Below, piece by piece: positions 1 to 36,817 of a stretch of 64,000 bases of DNA. The notes beneath the pieces were generated by a model. The model saw only the letters and a program-made list of their open reading frames with translations, was not told the DNA's origin and did not search any database. How positions within the stretch are numbered: the first letter of the stretch is position 1; every line of letters starts with the position of its first letter. The stretch comes from Panopea generosa. Lineage: Eukaryota; Mollusca; Bivalvia; Adapedonta; Hiatellidae. The position numbers and the translations under genes are program-made. The DNA lies in assembly GCA_029582155.1 (NCBI GenBank), contig CM055906.1, forward strand, positions 14,248,343 to 14,312,342, in the 5' to 3' direction.

Positions 1-160
1 CCTGGTCCATTATACAATTTATCATTAAACTTGTTTGCATGATGTAATACAAGTAGTTGCATAAGTCTTAGAAAGGGTGATGGTGATAATGATGGAAGAT
101 TTGATAAATATTTCATTTTTTAAGACATTAACAGGGTTAGATATCTGTTTGGCAAATCAA

Positions 161-178
161 GGGAGGGAGGGAGGGAGG
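161..178 (+). other. G-quadruplex-forming motif, one per satellite unit
   Basis: Four GGG runs separated by single A bases, followed by a GG, lie about 160 bp into the first unit and recur at the same phase in every complete unit (653, 1145 and so on). Single-base loops between G3 tracts fit the most stable class of intramolecular G-quadruplex. The folding is inferred from the sequence. Confidence 0.75.
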
Positions 179-230
179 TAATAAAGTTGTTTAGCCAATT
201 TTAATTGTTTCAAAAACCCTGATATCTGTG

Positions 231-370
231 CCCTTTATGTCTGGTGGTGCTCTGTGTCACCTGTGCTTGCCAGGGGGCCCCCTGAGGTCCCTGCTCCTTT
301 GTCTGTTGGTGTACAGAATTCCGTTTGCACCGGGACCATCCAACGGTATAGTACTGCAGGACATAAAGGG
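231..370. repeat. Inverted-repeat segment inside the satellite unit
   Basis: An 11-bp sequence (CCCTTTATGTC, 231-241) is matched by its exact reverse complement at 360-370, enclosing about 118 bp. Inside lies a perfect 14-bp palindrome at 271-284 (CAGGGGGCCCCCTG). The same arrangement repeats in each complete unit. It could be a small non-autonomous transposon captured in the unit or simply a hairpin-forming patch. No target-site duplication was identified. Confidence 0.5.
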
Positions 371-3300
371 ACTGACTGCATCATATTTTTTTTCCAACAT
401 TTGTTTTTTTTTGAGTATGGCCTTACAGTGGCAACATACTTTGTGGCATACATAATTATTAACTGAGTTTTGTGATTTTGTTTTGATTTCAGCCTGGTCC
501 ATTATACAATTTATCATTAAACTTGTTTGCATGATGTAATACAAGTAGTTGCATAAGTCTTAGAAAGGGTGATGGTGATAATGATGGAAGATTTGATAAA
601 TATTTCATTTTTTAAGACATTAACAGGGTTAGATATCTGTTTGGCAAATCAAGGGAGGGAGGGAGGGAGGTAATAAAGTTGTTTAGCCAATTTTAATTGT
701 TTCAAAAACCCTGATATCTGTGCCCTTTATGTCTGGTGGTGCTCTGTGTCACCTGTGCTTGCCAGGGGGCCCCCTGAGGTCCCTGCTCCTTTGTCTGTTG
801 GTGTACAGAATTCCGTTTGCACCGGGACCATCCAACGGTATAGTACTGCAGGACATAAAGGGACTGACTGCATCATATTTTTTTTCCAACATTTGTTTTT
901 TTTTGAGTATGGCCTTACAGTGGCAACATACTTTGTGGCATACATAATTATTAACTGAGTTTTGTGATTTTGTTTTGATTTCAGCCTGGTCCATTATACA
1001 ATTTATCATTAAACTTGTTTGCATGATGTAATACAAGTAGTTGCATAAGTCTTAGAAAGGGTGATGGTGATAATGATGGAAGATTTGATAAATATTTCAT
1101 TTTTTAAGACATTAACAGGGTTAGATATCTGTTTGGCAAATCAAGGGAGGGAGGGAGGGAGGTAATAAAGTTGTTTAGCCAATTTTAATTGTTTCAAAAA
1201 CCCTGATATCTGTGCCCTTTATGTCTGGTGGTGCTCTGTGTCACCTGTGCTTGCCAGGGGGCCCCCTGAGGTCCCTGCTCCTTTGTCTGTTGGTGTACAG
1301 AATTCCGTTTGCACCGGGACCATCCAACGGTATAGTACTGCAGGACATAAAGGGACTGACTGCATCATATTTTTTTTCCAACATTTGTTTTTTTTGAGTA
1401 TGGCCTTACAGTGGCAACATACTTTGTGGCATACATAATTATTAACTGAGTTTTGTGATTTTGTTTTGATTTCAGCCTGGTCCATTATACAATTTATCAT
1501 TAAACTTGTTTGCATGATGTAATACAAGTAGTTGCATAAGTCTTAGAAAGGGTGATGGTGATAATGATGGAAGATTTGATAAATATTTCATTTTTTAAGA
1601 CATTAACAGGGTTAGATATCTGTTTGGCAAATCAAGGGAGGGAGGGAGGGAGGTAATAAAGTTGTTTAGCCAATTTTAATTGTTTCAAAAACCCTGATAT
1701 CTGTGCCCTTTATGTCTGGTGGTGCTCTGTGTCACCTGTGCTTGCCAGGGGGCCCCCTGAGGTCCCTGCTCCTTTGTCTGTTGGTGTACAGAATTCCGTT
1801 TGCACCGGGACCATCCAACGGTATAGTACTGCAGGACATAAAGGGACTGACTGCATCATATTTTTTTTCCAACATTTGTTTTTTTTTGAGTATGGCCTTA
1901 CAGTGGCAACATACTTTGTGGCATACATAATTATTAACTGAGTTTTGTGATTTTGTTTTGATTTCAGCCTGGTCCATTATACAATTTATCATTAAACTTG
2001 TTTGCATGATGTAATACAAGTAGTTGCATAAGTCTTAGAAAGGGTGATGGTGATAATGATGGAAGATTTGATAAATATTTCATTTTTTAAGACATTAACA
2101 GGGTTAGATATCTGTTTGGCAAATCAAGGGAGGGAGGGAGGGAGGTAATAAAGTTGTTTAGCCAATTTTAATTGTTTCAAAAACCCTGATATCTGTGCCC
2201 TTTATGTCTGGTGGTGCTCTGTGTCACCTGTGCTTGCCAGGGGGCCCCCTGAGGTCCCTGCTCCTTTGTCTGTTGGTGTACAGAATTCCGTTTGCACCGG
2301 GACCATCCAACGGTATAGTACTGCAGGACATAAAGGGACTGACTGCATCATATTTTTTTTCCAACATTTGTTTTTTTTGAGTATGGCCTTACAGTGGCAA
2401 CATACTTTGTGGCATACATAATTATTAACTGAGTTTTGTGATTTTGTTTTGATTTCAGCCTGGTCCATTATACAATTTATCATTAAACTTGTTTGCATGA
2501 TGTAATACAAGTAGTTGCATAAGTCTTAGAAAGGGTGATGGTGATAATGATGGAAGATTTGATAAATATTTCATTTTTTAAGACATTAACAGGGTTAGAT
2601 ATCTGTTTGGCAAATCAAGGGAGGGAGGGAGGGAGGTAATAAAGTTGTTTAGCCAATTTTAATTGTTTCAAAAACCCTGATATCTGTGCCCTTTATGTCT
2701 GGTGGTGCTCTGTGTCACCTGTGCTTGCCAGGGGGCCCCCTGAGGTCCCTGCTCCTTTGTCTGTTGGTGTACAGAATTCCGTTTGCACCGGGACCATCCA
2801 ACGGTATAGTACTGCAGGACATAAAGGGACTGACTGCATCATATTTTTTTTCCAACATTTGTTTTTTTTTGAGTATGGCCTTACAGTGGCAACATACTTT
2901 GTGGCATACATAATTATTAACTGAGTTTTGTGATTTTGTTTTGATTTCAGCCTGGTCCATTATACAATTTATCATTAAACTTGTTTGCATGATGTAATAC
3001 AAGTAGTTGCATAAGTCTTAGAAAGGGTGATGGTGATAATGATGGAAGATTTGATAAATATTTCATTTTTTAAGACATTAACAGGGTTAGATATCTGTTT
3101 GGCAAATCAAGGGAGGGAGGGAGGGAGGTAATAAAGTTGTTTAGCCAATTTTAATTGTTTCAAAAACCCTGATATCTGTGCCCTTTATGTCTGGTGGTGC
3201 TCTGTGTCACCTGTGCTTGCCAGGGGGCCCCCTGAGGTCCCTGCTCCTTTGTCTGTTGGTGTACAGAATTCCGTTTGCACCGGGACCATCCAACGGTATA

Positions 3301-6300
3301 GTACTGCAGGACATAAAGGGACTGACTGCATCATATTTTTTTTCCAACATTTGTTTTTTTTTGAGTATGGCCTTACAGTGGCAACATACTTTGTGGCATA
3401 CATAATTATTAACTGAGTTTTGTGATTTTGTTTTGATTTCAGCCTGGTCCATTATACAATTTATCATTAAACTTGTTTGCATGATGTAATACAAGTAGTT
3501 GCATAAGTCTTAGAAAGGGTGATGGTGATAATGATGGAAGATTTGATAAATATTTCATTTTTTAAGACATTAACAGGGTTAGATATCTGTTTGGCAAATC
3601 AAGGGAGGGAGGGAGGGAGGTAATAAAGTTGTTTAGCCAATTTTAATTGTTTCAAAAACCCTGATATCTGTGCCCTTTATGTCTGGTGGTGCTCTGTGTC
3701 ACCTGTGCTTGCCAGGGGGCCCCCTGAGGTCCCTGCTCCTTTGTCTGTTGGTGTACAGAATTCCGTTTGCACCGGGACCATCCAACGGTATAGTACTGCA
3801 GGACATAAAGGGACTGACTGCATCATATTTTTTTTCCAACATTTGTTTTTTTTGAGTATGGCCTTACAGTGGCAACATACTTTGTGGCATACATAATTAT
3901 TAACTGAGTTTTGTGATTTTGTTTTGATTTCAGCCTGGTCCATTATACAATTTATCATTAAACTTGTTTGCATGATGTAATACAAGTAGTTGCATAAGTC
4001 TTAGAAAGGGTGATGGTGATAATGATGGAAGATTTGATAAATATTTCATTTTTTAAGACATTAACAGGGTTAGATATCTGTTTGGCAAATCAAGGGAGGG
4101 AGGGAGGGAGGTAATAAAGTTGTTTAGCCAATTTTAATTGTTTCAAAAACCCTGATATCTGTGCCCTTTATGTCTGGTGGTGCTCTGTGTCACCTGTGCT
4201 TGCCAGGGGGCCCCCTGAGGTCCCTGCTCCTTTGTCTGTTGGTGTACAGAATTCCGTTTGCACCGGGACCATCCAACGGTATAGTACTGCAGGACATAAA
4301 GGGACTGACTGCATCATATTTTTTTTCCAACATTTGTTTTTTTTGAGTATGGCCTTACAGTGGCAACATACTTTGTGGCATACATAATTATTAACTGAGT
4401 TTTGTGATTTTGTTTTGATTTCAGCCTGGTCCATTATACAATTTATCATTAAACTTGTTTGCATGATGTAATACAAGTAGTTGCATAAGTCTTAGAAAGG
4501 GTGATGGTGATAATGATGGAAGATTTGATAAATATTTCATTTTTTAAGACATTAACAGGGTTAGATATCTGTTTGGCAAATCAAGGGAGGGAGGGAGGGA
4601 GGTAATAAAGTTGTTTAGCCAATTTTAATTGTTTCAAAAACCCTGATATCTGTGCCCTTTATGTCTGGTGGTGCTCTGTGTCACCTGTGCTTGCCAGGGG
4701 GCCCCCTGAGGTCCCTGCTCCTTTGTCTGTTGGTGTACAGAATTCCGTTTGCACCGGGACCATCCAACGGTATAGTACTGCAGGACATAAAGGGACTGAC
4801 TGCATCATATTTTTTTTCCAACATTTGTTTTTTTTGAGTATGGCCTTACAGTGGCAACATACTTTGTGGCATACATAATTATTAACTGAGTTTTGTGATT
4901 TTGTTTTGATTTCAGCCTGGTCCATTATACAATTTATCATTAAACTTGTTTGCATGATGTAATACAAGTAGTTGCATAAGTCTTAGAAAGGGTGATGGTG
5001 ATAATGATGGAAGATTTGATAAATATTTCATTTTTTAAGACATTAACAGGGTTAGATATCTGTTTGGCAAATCAAGGGAGGGAGGGAGGGAGGTAATAAA
5101 GTTGTTTAGCCAATTTTAATTGTTTCAAAAACCCTGATATCTGTGCCCTTTATGTCTGGTGGTGCTCTGTGTCACCTGTGCTTGCCAGGGGGCCCCCTGA
5201 GGTCCCTGCTCCTTTGTCTGTTGGTGTACAGAATTCCGTTTGCACCGGGACCATCCAACGGTATAGTACTGCAGGACATAAAGGGACTGACTGCATCATA
5301 TTTTTTTTCCAACATTTGTTTTTTTTTGAGTATGGCCTTACAGTGGCAACATACTTTGTGGCATACATAATTATTAACTGAGTTTTGTGATTTTGTTTTG
5401 ATTTCAGCCTGGTCCATTATACAATTTATCATTAAACTTGTTTGCATGATGTAATACAAGTAGTTGCATAAGTCTTAGAAAGGGTGATGGTGATAATGAT
5501 GGAAGATTTGATAAATATTTCATTTTTTAAGACATTAACAGGGTTAGATATCTGTTTGGCAAATCAAGGGAGGGAGGGAGGGAGGTAATAAAGTTGTTTA
5601 GCCAATTTTAATTGTTTCAAAAACCCTGATATCTGTGCCCTTTATGTCTGGTGGTGCTCTGTGTCACCTGTGCTTGCCAGGGGGCCCCCTGAGGTCCCTG
5701 CTCCTTTGTCTGTTGGTGTACAGAATTCCGTTTGCACCGGGACCATCCAACGGTATAGTACTGCAGGACATAAAGGGACTGACTGCATCATATTTTTTTT
5801 CCAACATTTGTTTTTTTTTGAGTATGGCCTTACAGTGGCAACATACTTTGTGGCATACATAATTATTAACTGAGTTTTGTGATTTTGTTTTGATTTCAGC
5901 CTGGTCCATTATACAATTTATCATTAAACTTGTTTGCATGATGTAATACAAGTAGTTGCATAAGTCTTAGAAAGGGTGATGGTGATAATGATGGAAGATT
6001 TGATAAATATTTCATTTTTTAAGACATTAACAGGGTTAGATATCTGTTTGGCAAATCAAGGGAGGGAGGGAGGGAGGTAATAAAGTTGTTTAGCCAATTT
6101 TAATTGTTTCAAAAACCCTGATATCTGTGCCCTTTATGTCTGGTGGTGCTCTGTGTCACCTGTGCTTGCCAGGGGGCCCCCTGAGGTCCCTGCTCCTTTG
6201 TCTGTTGGTGTACAGAATTCCGTTTGCACCGGGACCATCCAACGGTATAGTACTGCAGGACATAAAGGGACTGACTGCATCATATTTTTTTTCCAACATT

Positions 6301-6728
6301 TGTTTTTTTTTGAGTATGGCCTTACAGTGGCAACATACTTTGTGGCATACATAATTATTAACTGAGTTTTGTGATTTTGTTTTGATTTCAGCCTGGTCCA
6401 TTATACAATTTATCATTAAACTTGTTTGCATGATGTAATACAAGTAGTTGCATAAGTCTTAGAAAGGGTGATGGTGATAATGATGGAAGATTTGATAAAT
6501 ATTTCATTTTTTAAGACATTAACAGGGTTAGATATCTGTTTGGCAAATCAAGGGAGGGAGGGAGGGAGGTAATAAAGTTGTTTAGCCAATTTTAATTGTT
6601 TCAAAAACCCTGATATCTGTGCCCTTTATGTCTGGTGGTGCTCTGTGTCACCTGTGCTTGCCAGGGGGCCCCCTGAGGTCCCTGCTCCTTTGTCTGTTGG
6701 TGTACAGAATTCCGTTTGCACCGGGACA

Positions 6729-7228
6729 NNNNNNNNNNNNNNNNNNNNNNNNNNNNNNNNNNNNNNNNNNNNNNNNNNNNNNNNNNNNNNNNNNNNNNNN
6801 NNNNNNNNNNNNNNNNNNNNNNNNNNNNNNNNNNNNNNNNNNNNNNNNNNNNNNNNNNNNNNNNNNNNNNNNNNNNNNNNNNNNNNNNNNNNNNNNNNNN
6901 NNNNNNNNNNNNNNNNNNNNNNNNNNNNNNNNNNNNNNNNNNNNNNNNNNNNNNNNNNNNNNNNNNNNNNNNNNNNNNNNNNNNNNNNNNNNNNNNNNNN
7001 NNNNNNNNNNNNNNNNNNNNNNNNNNNNNNNNNNNNNNNNNNNNNNNNNNNNNNNNNNNNNNNNNNNNNNNNNNNNNNNNNNNNNNNNNNNNNNNNNNNN
7101 NNNNNNNNNNNNNNNNNNNNNNNNNNNNNNNNNNNNNNNNNNNNNNNNNNNNNNNNNNNNNNNNNNNNNNNNNNNNNNNNNNNNNNNNNNNNNNNNNNNN
7201 NNNNNNNNNNNNNNNNNNNNNNNNNNNN
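6729..7228. other. Assembly gap (500 N)
   Basis: Exactly 500 N, a conventional placeholder size. It interrupts a satellite unit, so the number of missing units is unknown. Frames that seem to run through it are artefacts. Confidence 0.99.
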
Positions 7229-8491: not shown

Positions 8492-8775
8492 AGATTGATT
8501 AATTGAATATTTAGAGTCATTTTTATGCCATCGAGGGCTAACAGACGATCAGATAACCTAACCACTGTTTCCTGGGATTATCCAGAACTCGAGTACACCC
8601 CATCTCCGCAACTTAATGATACGTTTCCCACTTGAATTAGAGGTGAGAGACGAATGATAATGAGACACAATGTCGTATATCAATCATCACGGAGATTGTT
8701 GCCGAGCAAGGATTCGAATTCACGATCCCTGGATTGATAGTCAGACGCGTAACCGACTGAGCTAATCGTGCCTGG
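8492..8775 (-). mobile_element. tRNA-derived SINE, family A, near full length
   Basis: Read on the minus strand it begins with a tRNA-like head (A-box TAGCTCAGTCGG, B-box region TTCGAATCC) and continues through the family body to the TTGCGGAGATGGGGTG core, a CTCGAG block, TGATCGTCTGTTAGCCCTCG and a tail of ATTCAATTAATCAATC. Both pol III promoter boxes are recognisable. It is one of the best preserved of about eight family A copies here. Confidence 0.88.
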
Positions 8776-8975
8776 CACGTCTACTTTAGACAGTATTCTG
8801 AGCGCTTCCACACTTGAATTTGATGCCGCAGATACATGTTATGATACTACACCCAGTTGCATTATACTGACACCGTGCCAACCACTCTCAATGCAGAGCA
8901 TCAAGCGAAGAGGCTTCTAGTACCATTTTTTCAAATCTTTGATATGACAAGACCGGATACAGATACATATGCGCC

Positions 8976-10247
8976 ATGATACAGATACTGCTGGATCAGC
9001 AACATGTAATATATTACCCACAACCCTTCACTTACTGTGATAACCTGAAACATCGCCGTGTTCTGACTATATACAGGACCGGGGCAGTGTATGTCTGTGT
9101 ACATGTCTCCCATACCATCCACCAGATTACCGCTAGCTGTACCAAGATACAGATACTGCTGGATCAGCAACATGTAATGTATTACCCACAACCCTTCACT
9201 TACTGTGATAACCTGAAACATCGCCGTGGTCTGACTATATACAGGACCGGGGCAGTGTATGTCTGTGTACATGTCTCCCATACCATCCACCAGATTACTG
9301 CTGGCTGTACCAAGATACAGATACTGCTGGATCAGCAACATGTAATATATTACCCACAACCCTTCACTTACTGTGATAACCTGAAACATCCCCGTGGGCT
9401 GCCTATAGACAGGACCGAGACAGTGTATATCTGTGTACATGGCTCCCATACCATCCACCAGATTACCGCTGGCTGTACCAAGATACAGAAACTGCTGGAT
9501 CAGCAACATGTAATATATTACCCACAACCCTTCACTTACTGTGATAACCTGAAACATCCCCGTGGTCTGACTATAGACAGGACCGGGACAGTGTATATCT
9601 GTGTACATGGCTCCCATACCATCCACCAGATTACCGCTGGCTGTACCAAGATACAGATACTGCTGGATCAGCAACATGTAATATATTACCCACAACCCTT
9701 CACTTACTGTGATAACCTGAAACATCGCCGTGGGCTGACTATAGACAGGACCGGGAAAGTGTATGTCTGTGTACATGGCTCCCATACAATCCACCAGATT
9801 ACCGCTGGCTGTACCAAGATACAGATGCTGCTGGATCAGCAACATGTAATATATTACCCACAACCCTTCACTTACTGTGATAACCTGAAACATCGCCGTG
9901 GGCTGACTATAGACAGGACAGGGACAGTGTATGTCTGTGTACATGGCTCCCATACCATCCACCAGATTACCGCTGGCTGTACCAAGATACAGATACTACT
10001 GGATCAGCAACATGTAATATATTACCCACAATCCTTCACTTACTGTGATAACCTGAAACATCGCCGTGGTCTGACTATAGACAGGACCGTGACAGTGTAT
10101 GTCTGTGTACATGGCTCCCATACCATCCACCAGATTACCGCTGACTGTACCAAGATACAGATACTGCTTGATCAGCAACATGAAATATATTACCCACGAC
10201 CCTTCACTAACTGTGATAACCTGAAACATCGCCGTGGTCTGAAATAG
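8976..10247 (+). pseudogene. First open segment of the NHL-like array (423 codons)
   Basis: About 7.5 blades without a stop. The first ATG lies at the array's left edge and is not preceded by a recognisable domain, so it is unlikely to be a true start. The segment ends where GGTCTGACTATAG of other units has become GGTCTGAAATAG, a one-base loss that makes TAG. The same change recurs at 11422. If translated it would give propeller blades only. Confidence 0.5.
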
Positions 10248-13200
10248 ACAGGACCGTGACAGTGTATGTCTGTGTACATGGCTCCTATACCATCCACCAG
10301 ATTACCGCTGACTGTACCAAGATACAGATACTGCTGAATCAGCAACATAGAATATATTACCCACAATCCTTCACTTACTGTGATAACCTGAAACATCCCC
10401 GTGGGCTGCCTATAGACAGGACCGGGGCAGTGTATGTCTGAGTACATGGCTCCCATACCATCCACCAGATTACTGCTGGCTGTACCAATATACAGATAAT
10501 GCTGGATCAGCAACATGGAATATATTAGCCACAACCCTTCACTTAATGTAATAACCTGAATCCTCTCCGTGGTCTGTCTAAAGACAGGACCGGGATAGTG
10601 TTTGTCTGTGTACATGGCTCCAATAACATCCACCAGATTACCGCTGGCTGTACCAAGATACAGATACTGCTGGGTCAGCAACATGGAATATATTACCCAC
10701 AACACTTCACTTACTGTGATAACCTGAAACATCGCCGTGGTCTGACTATATACAGGACCGGGGCAGTGTATGTCTGTGTACATGTCTCCCATACCATCCA
10801 CCAGATTACTGCTGGCTGTACCAAGATACAGATACTGCTGGATCAGCAACATGGAATATATTACCCACAACCCTTCACTTACTGTGATAACCTGAAACAT
10901 CCCCGTGGGCTGCCTATAGACAGGACCGAGACAGTGTATATCTGTGTACATGGCTCCCATACCATCCACAAGATTACCGCTGGCTGTACCAAGAAACAGA
11001 TACTGCTGGATCAGCAACATGTAATATATTACCCACAACCCTTCACTTACTGTGATAACCTGAAACATCGCCGTGGGCTGACTATAGACAGGACCGGGAA
11101 AGTGTATGTCTGTGTACATGGCTCCCATACCATCCACCAGATTACCGCTGGCTCTACCAAGATACAGATACTGCTGGATCAGCAACATGTAATATATTAC
11201 CCACAACCCTTCACTTACTGTGATAACCTGAAACATCGCCGTGGTCTGACTATAGACAGGACCGTGACAGTGTATGTCTGTGTACATGGCTCCCATACCA
11301 TCAACCAGATTACCGCTGACTGTACCAAGATACAGATACTGCTTGATCAGCAACATGAAATATATTACCCACGACCCTTCACTAACTGTGATAACCTGAA
11401 ACATCGCCGTGGTCTGAAATAGACAGGACCGTGACAGTGTATGTCTGTGTACATGGCTCCTATACCATCCACCAGATTACCGCTGACTGTACCAAGATAC
11501 AGATACTGCTGGATCAGCAACATAGAATATATTACCCACAATCCTTCACTTACTGTGATAACCTGAAACATCCCCGTGGGCTACCTATAGACAGGACCGG
11601 GGCAGTGTATGTCTGAGTACATGGCTCCCATACCATCCACCAGATTACTGCTGGCTGTACCAATATACAGATAATGCTGGATCAGCAACATGGAATATAT
11701 TAGCCACAACCCTTCACTTAATGTAATAACCTGAATCCTCTCCGTGGTCTGTCTAAAGACAGGACCGGGATAGTGTTTGTCTGTGTACATGGCTCCAATA
11801 ACATCCACCAGATTACCGCTGGCTGTACCAAGATACAGATACTGCTGGGTCAGCAACATGGAATATATTACCCACAACCCTTCACTTACTGTGATAACCT
11901 GAAACATCGCCGTGGTCTGACTATAGACAGGACCGGGACAGTGTATGTCTGTGTACATGGCTCCCATACCATCCACCAAATTACCGCTGGCTGTACCAAG
12001 ATACAGATACTGCTGGATCAGCAACATGGACTATATTACCCACAACCCTTCACTTACTGTGATAACCTAAAATATCCCCGTGGTCTGAATATAGACAAGA
12101 CCGTGACAGTGTATGTCTGTGTACATGGCTCCCATACCATCCACAAGATTACCGATGACTGTACCAAGATACAGATACTGCTGGATCAGCAACATGGAAT
12201 GTATTACCCACAACCCTTTACTTACTGTGATAACCTGAAACATCCCCGTGGGCTGCCTACAGACAGGACCGGGGCAGTGTATGTCTGTGTACATGGCTCC
12301 CATACCATACACCAGATTACCGCTGACTGTACCAAGATACAGATACTGCTGGATCAGCAACATGGACTATATTACCCACAACCCTTCACTTACTGTGATA
12401 ACCTTAAACATCCCCGTGGGCTGCCTAAAGACAGGACGGGGCAGTGTATGTCTGTGTACATGGCTCCCATATCATCCACCAGATTACCGCTGACTGTACC
12501 AAGATACAGATACTGCTGGATCAGCAACATGGAATATATTACCCACAACCCTTCACTTACTGTGATAACCTGAAACATCCCCGTGGGCTGCCTATAGCCA
12601 GGACCGTGACAGTGTATGTCTGTGTACATGGCTCCCATACCATCCAACAGATTACCGCTGGCTGTACCAAGATACAGAAACTGCTGGATCAGCACCATGT
12701 AATATATTACCCACAACCCTTCACTTACTGTTATAACCTGAAACATCCCCGTGGGCTGACTATAGACAGGACCGGGACAGTGTATATCTGTGTACATGGC
12801 TCCCATACCATCCACCAGATTACTGCTGGCTGTACCAAGATACAGATACTGCTGGATCAGCAACATGTAATATATTACCCACAACCCTTCACTTACTGTG
12901 ATAACCTGAATCATCGCCGTGGGCTGACTATAGACAGGACCGGAAAAGTGTATGTCTGTGTACATGGCTCCCATACCATCCACCAGATTACCGCTGGCTG
13001 TACCAAGATACAGATACTGCTGGATCAGCAACATGTAATATATTACCCACAACCCTTCACTTACTGTGATAACCTGAAACATCGCCGTGGGATGACTATA
13101 GACAGGACCGGGACAGTGTATGTCTGTGTACATGGCTCCCATACCATCCACCAGATTACCGCTGGCTGTACCAAGATACAGATACTGCTGGATCAGCAAA

Positions 13201-14627
13201 ATGTAATATATTACCCACAACCCTTCACTTACTGTGATAACCTGAAACATCGCCGTGGTCTGACTATAGACAGGACCGGGGCAGTGTATGTCTGTGTACA
13301 TGGCTCCCATACCATCCACCAGATTACTGCTGGCTATACCAATATACAGATACTGCTGGATCAGCAACATGGAATATATTACCCACAACCCTTCACTGAC
13401 TGTGATAACCTGAAACATCGCCTTGGTCTGACTATAGACAGAACCGTGACAGTGTATGTCTGTGTACATGGCTCCTATACCACAAACCAGATTACCGCTG
13501 ACTGTACCAAGATACAGATACTGCTGGATCAACAACATAAAATATACTACCCACAATCCTTCACTTACTGTGATAACCTGAAACATCCCCGTGGGCTGCC
13601 TATAGACAGGACCGGGGCAGTGTATGTCTGAGTACATGGCTCCCATACCATCCACCAGATTACTGCTGGCTGTACCAATATACAGATAATGCTGGATCAG
13701 CAACATGGAATATATTAGCCACAACCCTTCACTTAATGTAATAACCTGAATCCTCTCCGTGGTCTGTCTAAAGACAGGACCGGGATAGTGTATGTCTGTG
13801 TACATGTCTCCCATACCATCCACCAGATTACTGCTGGCTGTACCAAGATACAGATACTGCTGGATCAGCAACATGGAATATATTACCCACAACCCTTCAC
13901 TTACTGTGATAACCTGAAACATCCCCGTGGGCTGCCTATAGACAGGACCGAGACAGTGTGTATCTGTGTACATGGCTCCCATACCATCCACAAGATTACC
14001 GCTGGCTGTACCAAGAAACAGATACTGCTGGATCAGCAACATGTAATATATTACCCACAACCCTTCACTTACTGTGATAACCTGAAACATCGCCGTGGGC
14101 TGACTATAGACAGGACCGGGAACGTGTATGTCTGTGTACATGGCTCCCATACCATCCACCAGATTACTGCTGGCTATACCAATATACAGATACTGCTGGA
14201 TCAGCAACATGGAATATATTACCCACAACCCTTCACTGACTGTGATAACCTGAAACATCGCCTTGGTCTGACTATAGACAGAACCGTGACAGTGTATGTC
14301 TGTGTACATGGCTCCTATACCACAAACCAGATTACCGCTGACTGTACCAAGATACAGATACTGCTGGATCAACAACATAAAATATATTACCCACAATCCT
14401 TCACTTACTGTGATAATTGGAAACATCCCCGTGGGCTGCCTATAGACAGGACCGGGGCAGTGTATGTCTGTGTACATGGCTCCCATACCATCCACCAGAT
14501 TACTGCTGGCTATACCAATATACAGATAATGCTGGATCAGCAACATGGAATATATTAGCCACAACCCTTCACTTAATGTGATAACCTGAAACATCGCCGT
14601 GGTCTGACTATAGACAGGACCGGGGCA

Positions 14628-15956
14628 GTGTATGTCTGTGTACATGACTCCCATATCACCCACCAGATTACCACTGACTGTACCAAGATACAGATACTGC
14701 TGGATCAGCAACATGGAATATATTACCCACAACCCTTCACTTACTGTGATAACCTGAAACATCCCCGTGGGCTGCCTATAGACAGGACCGGGGCAGTGTA
14801 TGTCTGTGTACATCGCTCCCATACCATCCACCAGATTACCGCTGACTGTACCAAGATACAGATACTGCTGGATCAGCAACATGGAATATATTACCCACAA
14901 CCCTTCACTCACTGTGATAACCTAAAATATCCCCGTCGTCTGAATATAGACAAGACCGTGACAGTGTATGTCTGTGTACATGGCTCCCATACCATCCACC
15001 AGATAACCACTGACTGTACCAAGATACAGATACTGCTGGATCAGCAACATGGAATATATTACCAACAATCCTTCACTTACTGTAATAACCTGAATCCTCT
15101 CCGTGGTCTGTCTAAAGACAGGACCGGGATAGTGTTTGTCTGTGTACATGGCTCCAATAACATCCACCAGATTACCGCTGGCTGTACCAAGATACAGATA
15201 CTGCTGGGTCAGCAACATGGAATATATTACCCACAACCCTTCACTTACTGTGATAACCTGAAACATCGCCGTGGTCTGACTATAAACTGGACCGGGACAG
15301 TGTATGTCTGTGTACATGGCTCCCATACCATCCACCAAATTACCGCTGGCTGTACCAAGATACAGATACTGCTGGATCAGCAACGTGGAATATATTACCC
15401 ACAATCCTTCACTTACTGTGATAACCTAAAATATCCCCGTGGTCTGAATATAGACAAGACCGTGACAGTGTATGTCTGTGTACATGGCTCCCATACCATC
15501 CACAAGATTACCGCTGACTGTACCAAGATACAGATACTGCTGGATCAGCAACATGGAATATATTACCCACAATCCTTCACTTACTGTGATAACCTGAAAC
15601 ATCCCCGTGGGCTGCCTACAGACAGGACCGGGGCAGTGTATGTCTGTGTACATGGCTCCCATACCATCCACCAGATTACCGCTGACTGTACCAAGATACA
15701 GATACTGCTGGATCAGCAACATGGAATATATTACCCACAACCCTTCACTTACTGTGATAACCTGAAACATCCCCGTGGGCTGCCTAAAGACAGGACAGGG
15801 CAGTGTATGCCTGTGTACATGGCTCCCATACCATCAACCAGATTACCGCTGACTGTACCAAGATACAGATACTACTGGATCAGCAACATGGAATATATTA
15901 CCCACAACCATTCACTTACTGTGATAACCTTAAACATCCCCGTGGGCTGCCTATAG
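14628..15956 (+). pseudogene. Longest plus-strand open segment of the array (442 codons)
   Basis: About 7.5 blades in one frame, mostly of the QQHGIYYP subtype, ending after a one-base loss near 15796 (AGGACAGGGCAG where other units have AGGACCGGGGCAG) moves the blade frame. A very similar loss is seen near 12437. The overlapping frame 15803-17107 carries the blade sequence onward for another 434 codons. Confidence 0.5.
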
Positions 15957-17139
15957 CCAGGACCGTGACAGTGTATGTCTGTGTACATGGCTCCCATTCC
16001 ATCCACCAGATTACCGCTGACTGTACCAAGATACAGATACTGCTGGATCAGCAACATAGAATATATTACCCACAATCCTTCACTTACTGTGATAACCTGA
16101 AACATCCCCGTGGGCTGCCTATAGACAGGACCGGGAAAGTGTATGTCTTTGTACATGGCTCCCATACCATCCACCAGATTACCGCTGACTGTACCAAGAT
16201 ACAGATACTGCTGGATCAGCAACATGGAATATATTACCGACAACCCTTCACTTACTGTGATAACCTGAAACATCGCCGTGGTCTGACTATAGACAGGACC
16301 TGGGCAATGTATGTCTGTGTACATGACTCCCATACCACCCACCAGATTACCACTGACTGTACCAAGATACAGATACTGCTGGATCAGCAACATGGAATAT
16401 ATAACCCACATCCCTTCACTTACTGTGATAACCTGAAACATCCCCGTGGGCTGCCTATAGACAGGACCGGGGCAGTGTATGTCTGTGTACATCGCTCCCA
16501 TACCATCCACCAGATTACCGCTGACTGTACCAAGATACAGATACTGCTGGATCAGCAACATGGAATATATTACCCACAACCCTTCACTCACTGTGATAAC
16601 CTAAAATATCCCCGTGGTCTGAATATAAACAAGACCGTGACAGTGTATGTCTGTGTACATGGCTCCCATACCATCCACCAGATTACCGCTGACTGTACCA
16701 AGATACAGATACTGCTGGATCAGCAACATGGAATATATTACCCACAATCCTTCACTTACTGTGATAACCTGAAACATCACCGTGGTCTGACTAAAGACAG
16801 AACCGGGATAGGGTATGTTGGTTTACATGGCTCCCATATCATCCACCAGATTACCGCTGATTGTACCAAGATACAGATAATGCTGGATCAGCAACATGGA
16901 ATATATTACCGACAGCCCTTCACTTACTGTGATAACCTAAAATATCCCCGTGGTCTGAATATAGACAGGACCGGGGCAGTGTATGTCTGTGTACATGGCT
17001 CACATACCATCCACCAGATTACCGCTGACTGTACCAAGATACAGATACTGCTGGATCAGCAACATGGAATATATTACCCACAACCCTTCACTTACTGTGA
17101 TACCTAAACTATCCCCGTGGTCTGAATATAGACAAGACC

Positions 17140-17334
17140 GTGACAGTGTATGTCTGTGTACACGACTCCCATATCACCCACCAGATTACCACTGACTGTA
17201 CCAAGATACAGATACTGCCGGATCAGCAACATGGAATATATTACCCACAATCCATCACTTACTGTGATAAGGAGGACAAACTGTGTGTTGGAATGTTGGC
17301 AGGAAATCTCGCGAAAACGTTTCAGTTGAAATAG
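17140..17334 (+). pseudogene. Terminal NHL-like blade with authentic-looking C terminus
   Basis: The last repeat departs from the consensus after TYCD: instead of NLKH it reads KEDKLCVGMLAGN and ends ...KTFQLK before TAG at 17332-17334. A final strand of the form DKL-x-VGM-x-x-GN-x-x-K-x-FQL is how many molluscan TRIM/NHL-type proteins end, from family knowledge. It therefore marks the true 3' end of the ancestral reading frame and fixes plus as the sense strand. It is separated from the preceding blade frame by a one-base loss near 17101 (GTGATACC where other units have GTGATAACC). Confidence 0.65.
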
Positions 17335-18119
17335 TACTGAAATATCTTGAAAGTGTAAAAAATTACTAAAAATAATATGAATAATAACAATAAAAATGAA
17401 TAAAGAAAATCAATGCACAATAATTATGATGTTACTGGTAGTGACGGTTCTGATGTCGTAATAACACCAACCACGGCCACGATACTGTTGATACAAACAC
17501 TTAATATTAATGACAGACAATCATTATAAAAGTATTAAATATGTTTTGATGATAGAAAATACAATCCCTACAAATACGAACAAAACTTACATACAATATC
17601 ATAAACAAGTGATTCATTTAAATTAGAGTATAAGAAATGTATTAAATATAATGAGTATATTGTAAACCGTTTTTATCTAATATATAATATAATTAATCAA
17701 CATGTTTTAAATTATTATATATTGATATATGTTTATTATTTAAATCACTTGTATTCACTTTCTTGATGAAATAAATAATTGCATCTATTTCGTTGCATCT
17801 TATTCCTAATTTATTTTTTATAAACTTTAATTTTTAAATGTAAGACTTAAATTAAATAGATACATAGGTTATAGCATAATATTTCATACATTCAAATGAT
17901 TGTGTAATACGTATTTTGGTCACCTGTGAGGCTTCCCAATATAACAACGTTCTCCAACTTAGACGTTATTTCACATTTTGCCAAACCCAGCTGTCAGAAA
18001 ATAAAGTACAAATCAGTGGTAAATACAAGTGTATGGTAATAAATCGATCATATTCATGTTTATGCATTAAATAAATATTTACATCGATGGACGTACTACC
18101 TTGTGGAAATATCTCCATG
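17335..18119. other. AT-rich unique DNA, nothing recognised
   Basis: Follows the terminal stop of the array. It has many A/T runs, but no frame of note and no repeat structure. A 3' UTR could lie here, but no polyadenylation site can be assigned with confidence. Confidence 0.5.
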
Positions 18120-21230: not shown

Positions 21231-22331
21231 ATGGACCTCTTAAAGATATACATTGTGTGTGTGACAGTCTGAGATCTTTAATGTTTTTGGACCTCTCAAA
21301 GATATACATTGTATGTGTGACACTCTGAGATCTTTGATGTTTTTACTTAATGATGGACCTCTCAAAAATATACATTGTGTGTGACACACTGAGATCTTTG
21401 ATGTTTTTACTTAATGATGGGCCTCTCAAAGATATACATTGTGTGTGTGACAGTCTGAGGTCTTTAATGTTTTAACTTAATGATGGACCTCTCAAAGATA
21501 TCATGACATTGTGTGTGTGACAGTCTGAGGTCTTTAATGTTTTTACTTAATGATAGACCTCTCAAAGATATCATGACATTGTGTGTGTGACAGTCTGAGG
21601 TCTTTAATGTTTTTACTTAATGATAGACCTCTCAAAGATATACATTGTGTGTGTGACAGTCTGAGATCTTTAATGTTTTGACTTAATGATGGACCTCTCA
21701 AAGATATACATTGTGTTTTTGACAGTCTGAGATCTTTAATGTTTTTACTTAATGATGGACCTCTCAAAGATATACATTGTGTGTGTGACAATCTGAGATT
21801 TTAATGTTTTTACTTAATGATGGACCTCTCAAAGATATCATGACATTGTGTGTGTGACAGTCTGAGGTCTTTAATGTTTTGACTTAATGATGGACCTCTC
21901 AAAGATATACATTGTGTGTGTGACAGTCTGAGATCTTTAATGTTTTTACTTAATGATGGACCTCTCAAAGATATCATGACATTGTGTGTGTGACAGTCTG
22001 AGATCTTTAATGTTTTCACTTAATGATGGACCTCTCAAAGATAAACATTGTGTGTGTGTGACACTCTGAGTTCTTTAATGTTTTTACTTAATGATGGACC
22101 TCTCAAAATATACATTGTGTGTGTGACAGTCTGAGATCTTTAATGTTTTTACTTAATGATGGACCTCTCAAAGATATCATGACATTGTGTGTGTGACACT
22201 CTGAGATCTTTAATGTTTTTACTTAATGATGGACCTCTCAAAGATATACATTGTGTGTGTGTGACACTCTGAGGTCTTTAATGTTTTTACTTAATGATGG
22301 ACCTCTCAAAGATATACATTGAGATATTTGA
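21231..22331. repeat. 66-bp minisatellite, about 16 units
   Basis: The unit contains ATGGACCTCTCAAAGATATA, CATTGTGTGTGTGACAGTCT and GAGATCTTTAATGTTTTTAC. Some units carry a four-base longer variant (GATATCATGACATTG). Minus-strand frames here only reflect the repeat. The array resumes at 22539 after a SINE. Confidence 0.93.
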
Positions 22332-22340
22332 TGTTTTTAT

Positions 22341-22538
22341 TCGCTTGGCGTTAAACATTTAGAGGATAGTGCTAGGTCTGCTCGGCCCAGTGTCAGTATA
22401 ATGTGACTGGATGGGGAATCATATCATGTATCTGCGGCATGATACTCCTGTGTGATAGCGCTTATAAAACTGTCTCAAGTAGACACCGTCGCAAAATTGT
22501 TGAAAGCAACACTAAACACCATACAAACAAAACTAACA
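22341..22538 (+). mobile_element. SINE family B copy inside the 66-bp minisatellite
   Basis: Shares the family body with the copy at 20002-20300 (CGGCATGATACTCC, CTGTCTCAAGTAGACACCGT, CACTAAACACCATACAAAC). The tRNA-like head is missing or unrecognisable, so it is 5'-truncated. Minisatellite units lie on both sides, so the SINE inserted after the array had formed. Confidence 0.8.
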
Positions 22539-22640
22539 AACTTAATGATGGGCCTATACATTGTGTGTGCGACTGACTGAGATCTTAAATGTTTTTTTCT
22601 AAATGATGGACCTCTCAAAGACATGCATTGTGTGTGTGAC
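22539..22640. repeat. 66-bp minisatellite, continuation after the SINE
   Basis: About 1.5 diverged units (TTAATGATGGGCCTATACAT, then ATGATGGACCTCTCAAAGAC). Confidence 0.85.
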
Positions 22641-23830
22641 AGATTTGTATCATAAAATATCTTCTTTATTCTCTTTCCTTTCATTCATTTGTTTGTGCGT
22701 TCGTCCCATCAAATTTGTTTTCAGTGAAATAATTCTGAAAAAGGTCTGTGAATGTTGTAATTTTCGATGTATAATTGTTTAAATTACGTCCTCTTTTCAA
22801 CTTAATTTTTGTAAAGTAAACATATATCGGGGGAATCATTGTTGAATGGGCATTTACTCAAGTTGGAGATATGTTTAAACCTTTCAATAAATAATCGGCG
22901 ACCAGTTATATAGATAAATGAATATCTTTTAAAAGCGTAAACTTAAAAAGGATGATCTTTTTTTGCAGGTACTAGAATGAAACAGAGAAAAAAGGTTTCA
23001 CATGAAAAGTTTATATAGAGCAAGATGAAGAAAAAGGTATGTGATGATTTATTATGTAGATTAAAGGGATTATATTGGCTACACATTAAAGCGGTTCGCT
23101 CACACTAAGTCCATATATTATAACTTAAATATATATGTTTTAGGGAACTTTGTAATACTATTATAAATGTCCTTCATATATAAGTGATACAAAAAAAGTA
23201 CAATAAAACATTTTTTCATCAAAATTCAAGCTAAACACATTTGTTAAAAAGCGGTACAGAGAATTCCCCCAATATAAACTGGAGATTTTGTCTTGGAGCA
23301 CCTTGAGGAAAATCACGTGATACATCAGTTGTACAGCTCAACATGGCGGAAATGACTCTCGTGCATGCGTGATGTCCAACATGTTTATCGTTATGATGAC
23401 AGTATCTTAAAATACTTCACATGGCAAACTAATTTTAAAAATAAAACATATCAAATGGTTTATTTTTCGGGTACAGATTTTGCAAAAAAAAATCAACAAA
23501 ACTCATACTTTTGGGGCCGCCAGGATCATAGTCATTAATTAAATTTGATGTAATTGCATGTTACCGAAGCATTTTTATCATATTTTGACGGTAAAAAATA
23601 TTTTTTTGTTCAAATCAACAAAGTATGAGCAAATAGTTTTAAAGCTGCAAATGGACACTTTCTCTATTTGTTATGCACATAAAATAGTGCTTGTATACCC
23701 ATTCAATGCCAGAATTAGCCTAAGGGTTATTTAGTTAACACTTAAAAAATTAATAGTACTTTTCCTAAAAGATCTGTTGAAGAGGAACTTACAAAAAACA
23801 TTTCCTCTGATATGTTCATCTGTCCATTTG
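22641..23830. other. Probable intron or intergenic DNA
   Basis: No supported gene. Splice-like signals bracket 22971-23038 (TTTTTTTGCAG before, AAAAAGGTATGTG after), but the enclosed 68 bp has stops in the frame that the downstream SET exon would need. Confidence 0.45.
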
Positions 23831-23834
23831 TTGC

Positions 23835-23873
23835 CAGTAGAGCGATTCAGGCCCTCATGGGTCTCTTGTTTTT
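23835..23873 (+). mobile_element. Right end of a dispersed element
   Basis: AGAGCGATTCAGGCCCTCAT followed by GGGTCTCTTGTTTT. The same terminal sequence recurs at 24386-24417 and, with changes, at 27036-27072. Copies sharing one end indicate a dispersed non-autonomous element whose left part is diverged here. Confidence 0.6.
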
Positions 23874-24324
23874 TATGAAAGAAAGCCAATAATGTCTTCT
23901 ATATATATAAAATTTACTGTATATAAAGAGAAACTTTAAAAAAAAATTCCTCTAAATGTTCAAGGCCTAAACCATAGATATGTTTTCATAGTAACACTGA
24001 ATGGAGGTCCCCTGAAGGGTTTATTGAAGTCAGGTTACACGGGTCAAATTTGGGGCAGCCTCGGGGTCACTGTTTTAAAATAGGAAGATATAGGGAAAAT
24101 GTAAAATTTTTCGTGTAGACGCAATATTACCCACATTTTCCATTGAACCTTAACAAACTTTGCACAGCTGTATCTTGGATTGATTCTTGAATCAGTCAGA
24201 TTTGACCACAACTGCCCCTGCCACAGGGCTTATTTATAGTTATACATAAATAAAACATGACTTTGTTGTGTAGACATGGTAGAAATTCCATCTTTTGAAC
24301 CAGCCATATTGGTCTTATAGCACA

Positions 24325-24417
24325 ATTAAAGAGGAACTTGCATAAAACATTTCATTTGAAATGTTTATCTCTTCAATTGTTATAGTAGAGTGATTCAGAC
24401 CCTCTTGGGCCTCTTGT
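24325..24417 (+). mobile_element. Right part of a dispersed element
   Basis: AAAGAGGAACTTGCATAAAA and the terminal CAGACCCTCTTGGGCCTCTT repeat sequence seen at 23779-23873 (AAGAGGAACTTACAAAAAAC and then the same end). Two copies of one family in the same orientation. Confidence 0.6.
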
Positions 24418-24735
24418 TAATACATGCATGCAGGCATAATGGGGAAATATATAGTTTTACATCTTATGATGATGTGACAGTTGTTTAGTTAAGACTAAAC
24501 TTCAAATTCATTTCAGTTATTATAAATTTGTTAAAAAAATAATTTAAGAAGTGCAAAAGCTGTCTACCTTTTCCAACAAAATTTGAAGATCATATCAAGG
24601 AAATAATCTTGAGACAAAAAATCTTAACCAGCATAAAATTATCTATATCAATTTTTGTCTCGTCGCGATGAAGGATAGACGAGATAAAGGTGTTGCTTTT
24701 CCGTCAACGGCAGAGGCGTCAAACATTTATATATT
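24418..24735. other. AT-rich DNA, no gene recognised
   Basis: Contains a GTCTCGTCGCGATGAAGGAT segment at about 24657 that looks like part of a dispersed repeat, but it has no second copy in the window to confirm this. Confidence 0.4.
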
Positions 24736-24736
24736 C

Positions 24737-25195
24737 AGCTCCAACGTTAAATTTTTCGGTTTTACACTTTTTCTCAACAAGTACAAATGCTAGGACACTC
24801 ATACTTGGATCATAGTTACAACTAACACCCTGCATCACATTATATACTGCAGATGCTGAGTATGACCTCCATTGACTTTGTTTGATGCTGAATTTTGCAT
24901 TTACCTCCAACGTTTAAAAGTTTTCATTTTTACACTATTTCTCAATAAGTACTAGTGCTAGGACACTCATATTTGGATCATAGATACAACTAACACCCAG
25001 CATTACATTATATACTGCAGATACTGAGTATGACCTCCATTGACTTTGTTTGATGCTGAATTTTGCATTTAACTCCAACGTTAAGTTTTCATTTTTACAT
25101 TATTTCTCAATAAATACTAGTGCTAGGACACTCATATTTGGATCATAGTTACAACTATCACCCTGCATTACATAATATAATGCAGATGCTGAGTA
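24737..25195. repeat. 167-bp tandem repeat, about 2.8 units
   Basis: CTCCAACG recurs at 24739, 24905 and 25073. Units share GCTAGGACACTCATA, TTGGATCATAG and ACATTATATACTGCAGAT. Confidence 0.9.
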
Positions 25196-25249
25196 TTTTT
25201 ATTTTTTCTTTATTTTAAAAAAAAATTATTCTTTTTTTATTTTTAAATA

Positions 25250-25340
25250 TGTTTTACTTAGAAATACTGGTTAAAGTTCTTTTTTTTTTAAATTTGTTTT
25301 ACCTAGAAATACTGGTTAAAGTTTTGTGTGCAACTACCAT
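25250..25340. repeat. 45-bp direct duplication
   Basis: TGTTTTACTTAGAAATACTG followed by GTTAAAGTT occurs at 25250 and again at 25295, separated by T-rich spacer. Confidence 0.8.
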
Positions 25341-25637
25341 GAAGCTCATATCTCAAAAATCACTTAATGTATTTGATCGAAACTTCACACAATACTTCCT
25401 ACAATATTTCTTAGTCATTAAACCTACTACAACCAAGTTAGATAACCCTTACATGAATATAATGTTGTAATTTTTTCTTTTCCATGTGTGTATTAACAGT
25501 CAAAGCGGACACGGCGAGACATATCATTCTGCAGAATTCTTGTTTAGTTCTGACCTGTCTGCACTTTAAGAAAAAAATACATTTTCAAACAAATGTACTT
25601 AGGTCTTGTATTATCAATTTAGAATCTTTACTTACAG

Positions 25638-25773
25638 GAAGATGTGTTTTCACCAAAAATTTGATCCAGAAGGGCGACTATTTTCTTAAATACAGTGGAA
25701 CTTTCTGCAAAACAGATCCTGTTAGAGATGATACATATGTTTTTGAATTTAGATTTCACGGGAAGAAATGCTG
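25638..25773 (+). CDS. Internal exon encoding part of a SET domain (KMT5A-like)
   Basis: Between an acceptor (TTTACTTACAG, ending 25637) and a donor (CTG|GTAAGC, intron from 25774) lies a 136-bp open stretch. It encodes RCVFTKNLIQKGDYFLKY, then DDTYVFEFRFHGKKCW. This is the N-terminal part of a SET lysine-methyltransferase fold: the G-R-G-V-F-A motif that contacts S-adenosylmethionine, the K-G-D/E-F-x-x-x-Y-x-G strand and the Y-x-F-x-F-x-x-x-K-x-x-W/C-I-D-A-T approach. Layout and length fit KMT5A/SETD8-type domains best. The motif reads GRC instead of GRG, replacing a normally conserved glycine. The exon enters after codon base 1 and leaves after base 2. The second half of the domain (NHS-x-x-PNC and the Y-D-Y motif) was not found downstream. 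It may be one exon of a long-intron gene or an orphan exon of a pseudogene. Confidence 0.6.
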
Positions 25774-26728
25774 GTAAGCTTTGTTACCTTATACTCTTGC
25801 TGTTAATGGCTATACAGTTGTTAACAATTTTGAAATATTTGAATTTTACAATCATATTCTGAAACCATAAAACTTAAATAATTGACATGTAATACACATG
25901 GTGCGCTGGCCTTGCAATATCCTTGAATATTAACAAGCCTAAAAATTCTTAAAATTGTCAAAGGGACTTAAACAGTTCTAAATTTCATGCATTTGCCTTG
26001 AAAAGTACAAAAAATCCTAGTTTGAATTTTAACCGGAATGAACATTGGAGGAGATTCTGGTTAGCAACACATATTTGCCCAAATTGTTGAAACAAACGTC
26101 CCTGTTTAGAAATATCAAAGTTTTTTTATAGCCACATCACACAATTTGTGACTGTGGTCAGTTATCATTATGCCTACAGAGGGATGAGACAAGCGACTTG
26201 GGTATATTGACTGCATGTTTATGAAAGGTTTTCGAATCATAATATTCATGATTTATTTAATCCAGCATCAAATACACCATATCTACAGTACTCGATTGTA
26301 TGATGTGCAGAAAAACACCCTAAATTTGAAATGTGTTTAAGTTTGAAATTATGTAACTGTGTATAAAAAGAGCATGAAAGAATAATGTCAATGATAAAAC
26401 AGACAAAATGTGAAAGTTTCATCAGCTTTTTATACATCTTAATTATGAATTCGTGGATATTTACTAACAAATGAGTCTAATAATGAAAACATTAAATTAC
26501 CTTGATTTATAAATGTCGATCAAACTTGTGAAAGAGATCACCTCTATAAGGCAACCCCCTGTCTTAGCAGCCACAATTTTGCTATTTTCCGTTTCTACAC
26601 TTTCAGTACAAATTAACCTGTATTAAGCAACAATCTGTCTTAAGAGGCCAGTTTGGTTCCTTCCATTGACTGACTGAAGACAGGTTTGACTGTATTTAGG
26701 TAAATTTTAGTGTTAAGCTCTACATGCC
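25774..26728. other. Probable intron, no gene recognised
   Basis: Low-complexity AT-rich DNA. Two degenerate copies of a GGCAACC...CTGTCTTA segment lie at about 26550 and 26618, probably part of a dispersed repeat. Confidence 0.4.
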
Positions 26729-27072
26729 AAAGGCCAGAAGGGCCTATGTGATGGCGCGCTATCTGTTGTTCATCGGCTTAGACCATTAGGAACTATTTCT
26801 CTCTGAAACCACTACGCAAATTAAACTCACATGAAGACGACATTAAAATAGTCCAAAACTTAAAAAATATTCTTCTCATGAATGGCCCAACAGATTTTCA
26901 AAATGTTTATGTAGTAATGATGACTAACTATTGGTTTGTTATTTTTGTTCAAATTGTGTCCCTAGGATTAAAAATGACCCCGCCCCGATGTTTCTATTGC
27001 ATAGGAGAATTTCAAAAAGTGCTATAGCCACTATGAGTCAGCAGAGTGTCCTCAGGCCCTCTTGGGCCTTTT
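26729..27072. mobile_element. MITE-like element with imperfect terminal inverted repeats
   Basis: The left end AAAGGCCAGAAGGGCCTATG is matched, imperfectly and in reverse complement, by the right end AGGCCCTCTTGGGCCTTTTG, enclosing about 340 bp with no coding capacity. The right end is the sequence also seen at 23835-23873 and 24386-24417. Inferred to be a non-autonomous DNA element; no transposase is visible. Confidence 0.55.
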
Positions 27073-27381
27073 GTTTATGATGGAAGACAAACATTAAAAA
27101 GTTAAGCCCTATTGAGAACACTTCTTTTATTTGTTTATTTTAATTTTTTTCAAAAGGTTTAGAAGAGTATGAAGATGATACAACATGAAAGGATGAGGAG
27201 GATGCCGATGAGGAGGAGGAAACTGAGATTGAGGATAGGCAGGATACCATTGGTAAGTGCATAAGTAAAGCATATATCTAATTACTGGTCAAACATCCAT
27301 AGTATAGTTTCTGTTTTAATTTAGGCAAAATTGTAGGCAACTTTTAACTTAAAAATATAGTATGTTAGCAAGTCAGATTTT

Positions 27382-28726: not shown

Positions 28727-29117
28727 TTATAGATATCTTGCGACTGTAGTCCTACATGTACAATCAAGTAATGACCACTTGTTATAGACATCTTGCGGCC
28801 GTATTTCTACAATCAAGTAATGACCACTTGTTATAGACATCTTGCAGCCGTATTCCTACAATCAAGTAATGACCACTTGTTATAGACATTTTGCGGTCGT
28901 ATTCCTACAATGAAGTAATGACCAATTGTTATAGACATCTTGCAGCCGTCTTCTTACTATCAAGCAATGAGCACTTGTTATAGACATCTTGCGGCCGTAT
29001 TGCTACAATCAAGTAATGACTACTTGTTATAGACATCTTGCGGCCGTATTCCTACAATCAAGTAATGACAACTTGTTATAGACATCTTGCTGCCGTATTC
29101 CTACAATCAAGTAATGA
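28727..29117. repeat. 49-bp tandem repeat, about 8 units
   Basis: The unit is TATAGACATCTTGCGGCCGT, ATTCCTACAATCAAGTAATG, ACCACTTGT. The first unit carries extra bases. The array passes directly into a SINE-derived segment. Confidence 0.92.
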
Positions 29118-29165
29118 CTCTCACAGCTAATTCAAGATGATTAATCATTAAACTGCCGAGTTGGG
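29117..29165 (+). mobile_element. SINE family A remnant at the minisatellite border
   Basis: CTCTCACAGCTAATTCAAGA followed by TGATTAATCATTAAACTGCC and GAGTTGGGTATGCTCGGGTA matches, in order, the family A body (CTCTCACCGCTGATTCAAGT, GTTATCAGTTACTTGCGGA, GGTGTGCTC) seen at 37259-37544. It lies immediately left of the 38-bp array. Confidence 0.7.
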
Positions 29166-30948: not shown

Positions 30949-31448
30949 NNNNNNNNNNNNNNNNNNNNNNNNNNNNNNNNNNNNNNNNNNNNNNNNNNNN
31001 NNNNNNNNNNNNNNNNNNNNNNNNNNNNNNNNNNNNNNNNNNNNNNNNNNNNNNNNNNNNNNNNNNNNNNNNNNNNNNNNNNNNNNNNNNNNNNNNNNNN
31101 NNNNNNNNNNNNNNNNNNNNNNNNNNNNNNNNNNNNNNNNNNNNNNNNNNNNNNNNNNNNNNNNNNNNNNNNNNNNNNNNNNNNNNNNNNNNNNNNNNNN
31201 NNNNNNNNNNNNNNNNNNNNNNNNNNNNNNNNNNNNNNNNNNNNNNNNNNNNNNNNNNNNNNNNNNNNNNNNNNNNNNNNNNNNNNNNNNNNNNNNNNNN
31301 NNNNNNNNNNNNNNNNNNNNNNNNNNNNNNNNNNNNNNNNNNNNNNNNNNNNNNNNNNNNNNNNNNNNNNNNNNNNNNNNNNNNNNNNNNNNNNNNNNNN
31401 NNNNNNNNNNNNNNNNNNNNNNNNNNNNNNNNNNNNNNNNNNNNNNNN
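30949..31448. other. Assembly gap (500 N)
   Basis: Placeholder-sized gap between the 38-bp minisatellite and an AAT-type microsatellite. The right border of the minisatellite is therefore unseen. Confidence 0.99.
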
Positions 31449-36765: not shown

Positions 36766-36817
36766 AGTGGCGGTGGAAGTGGTGGTGGTGGACGACGACG
36801 ACGACGACAACGAAGAA

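Follow-up and report, generated by a model that had tools for sequence, protein, structure and literature searches.

We analysed a window of 64,000 nucleotides from the bivalve Panopea generosa (contig CM055906.1, positions 14,248,343 to 14,312,342), which carries a tandem array of 168-bp units related to the NHL blades of beta-propeller proteins. In all probability a fragment of a protein-coding gene gave rise to this array, a satellite-like tandem repeat that no longer codes for protein. This reading is built on a dispersed family of B-box/NHL genes that share the repeated segment, on frameshifts and stops copied along with blocks of units, and on the two edges of the array.

Period, reading frame and growth of the array

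Tandem Repeats Finder (TRF) described positions 8974-17270 as 49.4 copies of a 168-bp period with 92% matches. Scanning with an anchor gave 50 starts, from 8978 to 17205, that is, 49 units plus a terminal one, which bears out the period and copy number given in an initial annotation of this DNA. Units are spaced by 168 bp in 44 of 49 cases and by 167 bp in the other five (units 8, 15, 21, 41 and 49); their pairwise identity is 85-100%, with a mean of 92%. The same annotation had described a distinct final unit with its own stop codon, and the terminal unit indeed differs from the rest, ending in KEDKLCVGMLAGNLAKTFQLK and a stop at 17332-17334. The features of the array, by position and strand, are:

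8974-17200, plus strand: 49 complete tandem units whose source is the 3' end of a B-box/NHL gene (TRF, anchor scan, genome search)
10154-10656, plus strand: units 8-10, with a 1-bp deletion in unit 8 and premature stops in units 9 and 10
11329-11831, plus strand: units 15-17, duplicating units 8-10 with 0, 2 and 0 differences, lesions included
12336-12502, plus strand: unit 21 (167 bp), with a 1-bp deletion at unit column 102
13511-13846, plus strand: units 28-29, whose premature stops fall at the codons affected in units 9-10
14519-14686, plus strand: unit 34, with stops in common with unit 10
15695-15861, plus strand: unit 41, with a deletion identical to that of unit 21
17038-17204, plus strand: unit 49 in the anchor register (167 bp), with a 1-bp deletion at the unit junction
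17201-17268, plus strand: first 68 bases of a 50th unit, running on into the native gene end
17269-17334, plus strand: native end of the parent coding sequence, comprising the remainder of the last blade (KEDKLCVGMLAGNLAKTFQLK) and the stop codon TAG

No continuous reading frame runs through the array. Read in register, it contains 11 premature stops at three sites, spread over seven of the 49 units, and five one-base deletions, also at three sites, in the 167-bp units; together these lesions break the frame in 12 units and leave 37 unbroken. The single frame noted in the initial annotation is not borne out. The longest open stretch on the plus strand spans 459 amino acids, or about 8 units. 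On the minus strand an antisense frame of 843 amino acids extends over 12390-14921, without support from the distribution of variable columns over codon positions.

The relationships among units reveal how the array grew. The nearest relative of a unit is its neighbour in only 3 of 49 cases. In 19 of 48 comparisons two successive units have nearest relatives that are successive as well, against a mean of 0.96 and a maximum of 7 in 2,000 shuffled orders, and whole blocks pair with at most five differences each (units 6-10 with 13-17, 3-6 with 22-25, and 18-20 with 38-40). The array has therefore grown by the copying of blocks, and the lesions of units 8-10 recur in units 15-17 because they were carried along.

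Counts of substitutions gave no sign of purifying selection on the units. Silent changes from the consensus occur in 27 of 117 possible cases and amino-acid replacements in 83 of 368 (Fisher p 0.90), and 3 of 19 possible changes to a stop are present too. Proportions of synonymous (pS) and nonsynonymous (pN) differences between nearest-neighbour units were 0.0197 and 0.0220, respectively, and pN exceeded pS when all unit pairs were pooled. Variable columns number 29, 29 and 34 of 56 at the three codon positions, with no marked third-position excess. In its head-to-tail units, their spread by exchange and their lack of coding constraint the array resembles a satellite. It differs from a classical one, which is abundant, forms many arrays and lies in centromeric or heterochromatic DNA: a genome search with the unit DNA (best 40 of 91 candidates) returned this one array and no second.

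The B-box/NHL parent family and the nature of the unit

The same search, with loci counted by hand, yielded at least 124 matches, made up of the 49 full units and terminal part of the window and at least 39 loci elsewhere. All 49 full-length unit matches lie inside the window. The outside loci, on contigs C4, C11, C12, C16 and C18, carry unit positions 65-168 (or nearly) once each, at 84-92% identity over about 100 bp, and in 35 of 39 positions 1-50 or 1-70 follow within 0-3 bases; part of these second pieces begin at unit position 2-4. A search with the terminal 76 residues (best 150 of 567 candidates scored, best 150 of 151 matches considered) located loci on 11 contigs outside the window, at least 107 when counted by hand, and the parent family is therefore large. 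B-box/NHL genes of one exon are dispersed in the genome, with many members on C12, C16, C18 and C19.

Five parent loci were fetched (L029, L030, L031, L032 and L038). Three of them have open frames of 636, 644 and 647 amino acids, stop to stop, while L031 and L038 bear internal deletions. Each intact parent is one intronless open frame in which zf-B_box and NHL both score above the Pfam cut-offs. The initial annotation had traced the array to the last exon of a TRIM-NHL-like gene, a description that does not fit, because the parents are single open frames. It had also suggested looking for a parent with RING/B-box followed by six such blades. The B-box, the NHL domain and, by eye, the six blades of the propeller are there, but no RING family appeared among the Pfam hits of the three intact parents at E-values up to 0.1. 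As in TRIM-NHL proteins such as TRIM2, TRIM3, TRIM71 and Thin, the parents carry a B-box, a second, less clear B-box-like stretch and, at the C terminus, an NHL domain, and the C-terminal 310 residues of one parent match the structures of TRIM2, TRIM3 and Thin. They depart from these proteins in the missing RING and in a coiled coil that is detected weakly (PF25600 TRIM_CC, 0.036, under its cut-off, in one of the three). The family possibly has an immune role.

A block of about 3.0 kb is common to two parents that lie on different contigs, a hint of segmental copying or of a mobile carrier. A frame of 2,088 amino acids around a family member at C16:24728760-24728975, a candidate for a real multi-propeller gene, turned out to be spurious, produced by a long stretch of N.

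Searched against the PDB, one 56-residue consensus unit hits NHL propellers, among them the Pizza designs, PknD (3.9e-18) and Drosophila Thin (2.6e-5), although the strongest whole-sequence E-values in that search are inflated by repeats within the targets. The significant similarity to NHL blades that the initial annotation expected of a profile search was thus obtained from the PDB; in Pfam, NHL reached 0.0076 and 16.7 bits, under the curated cut-off of 20. No other Pfam family exceeded its cut-off with the single unit either, and every NCBIfam match fell under its own. Matches of a repeated query to MBTPS1, SGL, N-glycanase and other Pfam families, some above cut-offs, were accordingly discarded, because repeats in the query inflate such scores and one unit alone lifts no family over its threshold.

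The unit is NHL-like, as had been claimed, but it is not one blade. With blade boundaries set by eye, it consists of parent blade 5 (44 residues) plus 12 residues, of which eight belong to the start of blade 6 and four to the lead-in to blade 5. Alignment to the 42-residue Pizza blade requires 14 extra residues. A 56-residue unit set against a 44-residue blade step is thus not a single blade able to build a propeller. AlphaFold2 modelling of units 1-7 was uninformative, with a mean predicted local distance difference test score (pLDDT) of 40.

Searches of the window with three parent proteins (tblastn) placed 148 of 148 hits inside the array, from parent residue 390 onward; none was obtained with these proteins in 200 kb of flanking sequence, where 8,000 bases are N. 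The B-box part is absent from the window and from within 100 kb, the 8,000 N aside. The array therefore lacks the RING and/or B-box and coiled coil that stand upstream of NHL in a TRIM-NHL gene, and contains just the last part of the NHL domain, in many copies and with its frame disrupted.

These results bear on the other option of the initial annotation, a giant multi-propeller gene whose array would be translated as one or a few many-bladed NHL proteins. A period that is a multiple of three, the 37 unbroken units, plus-strand open stretches of 434-459 amino acids and the 843-residue frame on the minus strand would all suit such a gene. Against it stand the frameshifts and stops shared among units, which break the frame in 12 of the 49, the codon-position spread of variable columns, which marks no frame by a third-position excess, the failure of parent proteins to match anything else in the window or its flanks, and the 12 residues by which the unit exceeds a blade. 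We consider this gene highly improbable and infer that the array makes no protein. The first option of that annotation, expansion of a gene end that has turned satellite-like, holds in its NHL unit, its B-box/NHL parents and its lesions, though not in the RING, and the array is detached from any parent.

The array could also act on its parents. The Suppressor-of-Stellate repeats of flies are a model for repeat-derived small RNAs that silence a gene family. By analogy, the array would be transcribed, and small or antisense RNAs from it would tune the 100-odd parental B-box/NHL genes, making it a trans-regulator. The identity of 84-92% over about 100 bp to at least 39 parent loci and the many copies in one orientation are what such a small-RNA source would have; a decayed array needs no function. 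Both the silencing source and this wider regulatory role strike us as very far-fetched.

Edges, junction and order of events

The left edge of the array abuts a dispersed repeat, whereas the right edge coincides with the end of the parent coding sequence. The flanking features are:

8493-8776, minus strand: second dispersed repeat, SINE-like by eye (SINE, short interspersed nuclear element), with more copies in the window and flanks
8779-8956, minus strand: dispersed repeat, by eye a tRNA-derived SINE, with remains to about 8971 (by eye)
17335-17980, no strand: right flank, matching only itself in the genome and unrelated to the 3' flanks of the fetched parents

Matches to the parents begin at 8974, and left of this position no unit homology was found, the alignment score lying within the range of shuffled DNA. 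The left-edge repeat, judged from local copies, is present again within the window, and at least 6 of the 20 flank segments, each of 10 kb, contain it as well. Since copies in L010, L026, L011, L017, L028 and at window positions 42549-42442 extend beyond the point that matches 8956, the copy beside the array is cut. Scans for tRNA and Rfam families returned nothing, so that SINE-like is a by-eye label only. A roughly 62-bp unit matching window positions 8809-8873 of this repeat is amplified in tandem at L015:2692-6673, where TRF counted 47.7 copies in 2849-5787 and BLAST matches continue to 6673.

On the right, homology to all five fetched parents stops at 17334-17336. Among the matches listed, other outside matches to the array end stop between 17296 and 17341, and its closest relative, on C12, is 87-88% identical. 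L029, L030 and L032 share 3'-flank homology for about 420-590 bp past the stop, a length partly bounded by what was fetched. Truncation on the left together with a coding sequence that is complete at its 3' end looks like a 5'-truncated retrocopy, for which a parent mRNA would have been reverse-transcribed, inserted and later expanded. We regard this origin as very unlikely, because behind the stop there is neither the 3' flank common to the parents nor a poly(A) tract.

Somewhat less remote, but still improbable, is a history in which a mobile element captured the gene fragment and carries the array, for instance a non-autonomous Helentron built around a tandem array. Oyster Helentrons do carry satellite-like arrays (PMC7492417), and to the left of the array lies a dispersed repeat that has in part been amplified in tandem at another site. 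The right flank was found once in the genome and no second array of the unit was found (best 40 of 91 candidates), and hence no repeated element that includes both flanks was detected.

The junction between units reads ctgTGATAAcctg. In four of the five fetched parents, all except L030, the 5' end of the corresponding segment reads gaTGATAAcctg, or aTGATAAcctg in the stretch shown. At the 3' end of the segment TGATAA is present in two of the five (L029 and L030) and in the terminal copy of the window itself; the remaining three parents differ from it there by one base. The simplest reading is that a duplication joined two copies of this 6-bp sequence, by slippage or end joining.

Together these data suggest the following order of events. 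A 3'-terminal piece of a single-exon B-box/NHL gene, reaching to the stop codon, would have come to lie beside a truncated dispersed repeat. Inside this fragment a 168-bp segment, covering blade 5 and the start of blade 6, would have been duplicated in tandem, most likely via TGATAA at both of its ends; as 168 is 3 x 56, the earliest copies could stay in frame. The array would afterwards have grown by the copying of multi-unit blocks, through unequal exchange or slippage, spreading frameshifts and stops, and neutral decay of the array would have followed.

Several observations weigh against a gene-derived, non-coding array with this history. The microhomology is that of an inferred ancestor, because TGATAA stands at both segment ends in only one of the five fetched parents (L029). 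The consensus unit is itself open in one plus-strand frame. The ratio of nonsynonymous to synonymous rates (dN/dS) is 0.57-1.09 between the parents' own versions of the 56-residue segment and 0.55-0.84 for their full coding sequences, and 0.80-1.84 between the unit consensus and the parents. Constraint is thus weak in the parents too, and the lesions are for that reason a stronger argument than the missing constraint. Finally, the fragment may have moved in, or a resident gene may have lost its other parts.

Other tandem repeats occur in the vicinity. A 492-bp repeat, with copies 99.8-100% identical to the first, occupies window positions 1-6727, L017:9050-10000 and L018; it extends from C13:14237392 through L018 to window position 6727, about 17.7 kb or 36 copies, and stops at a gap of 500 N (6729-7228). 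This array looks very young. Minisatellites are scattered over window positions 21288-36769, with 15 copies of 66 bp at 21288, 7 of 49 bp at 28759, 47 of 38 bp at 29154 up to a gap of 500 N (30949-31448), and arrays of 33/66 bp at 34943-36769.

Comparison with known repeats and significance

Little relevant literature was found on gene-derived satellites or on the expansion of TRIM-NHL genes in bivalves or molluscs; a study of bivalve gene-family expansion lists a B-box group in one of its tables (PMC8382680). No described array of the same kind turned up, which is weak evidence of absence. Three systems offer partial parallels. A review of repeats and satellites that arise from other sequences (PMC6947457) follows transposable elements as they become repeats and then coding sequence. 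The array shares with the repeats described there its head-to-tail units, block copying and neutral decay, but its source is a host gene family and one array was found (best 40 of 91 candidates). Nascent beta-propellers have been described in which single blades were amplified into working proteins (PMC6805158). Here, too, about one blade of an existing propeller was amplified, but the amplified unit is 12 residues longer than the blade and the array has lost its frame. The oyster Helentron elements termed Cg_HINE (PMC7492417) are comparable in their satellite-like arrays, which are short and dispersed, with monomers screened at 100-500 bp. In contrast, the array in Panopea appears to be gene-derived and is single in the search of the best 40 of 91 candidates, and no element spanning both flanks was found.

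The figure 6 legend of PMC6947457 treats the reverse sense as not yet proved, and a clear case therefore has some value. The array would provide a well-resolved instance of a coding segment that became satellite-like, and one genome shows its parents, the block copying and a likely microhomology at the junction. It also carries a warning for annotation, in that 168-bp units in frame mimic a huge propeller gene and may draw false gene models.

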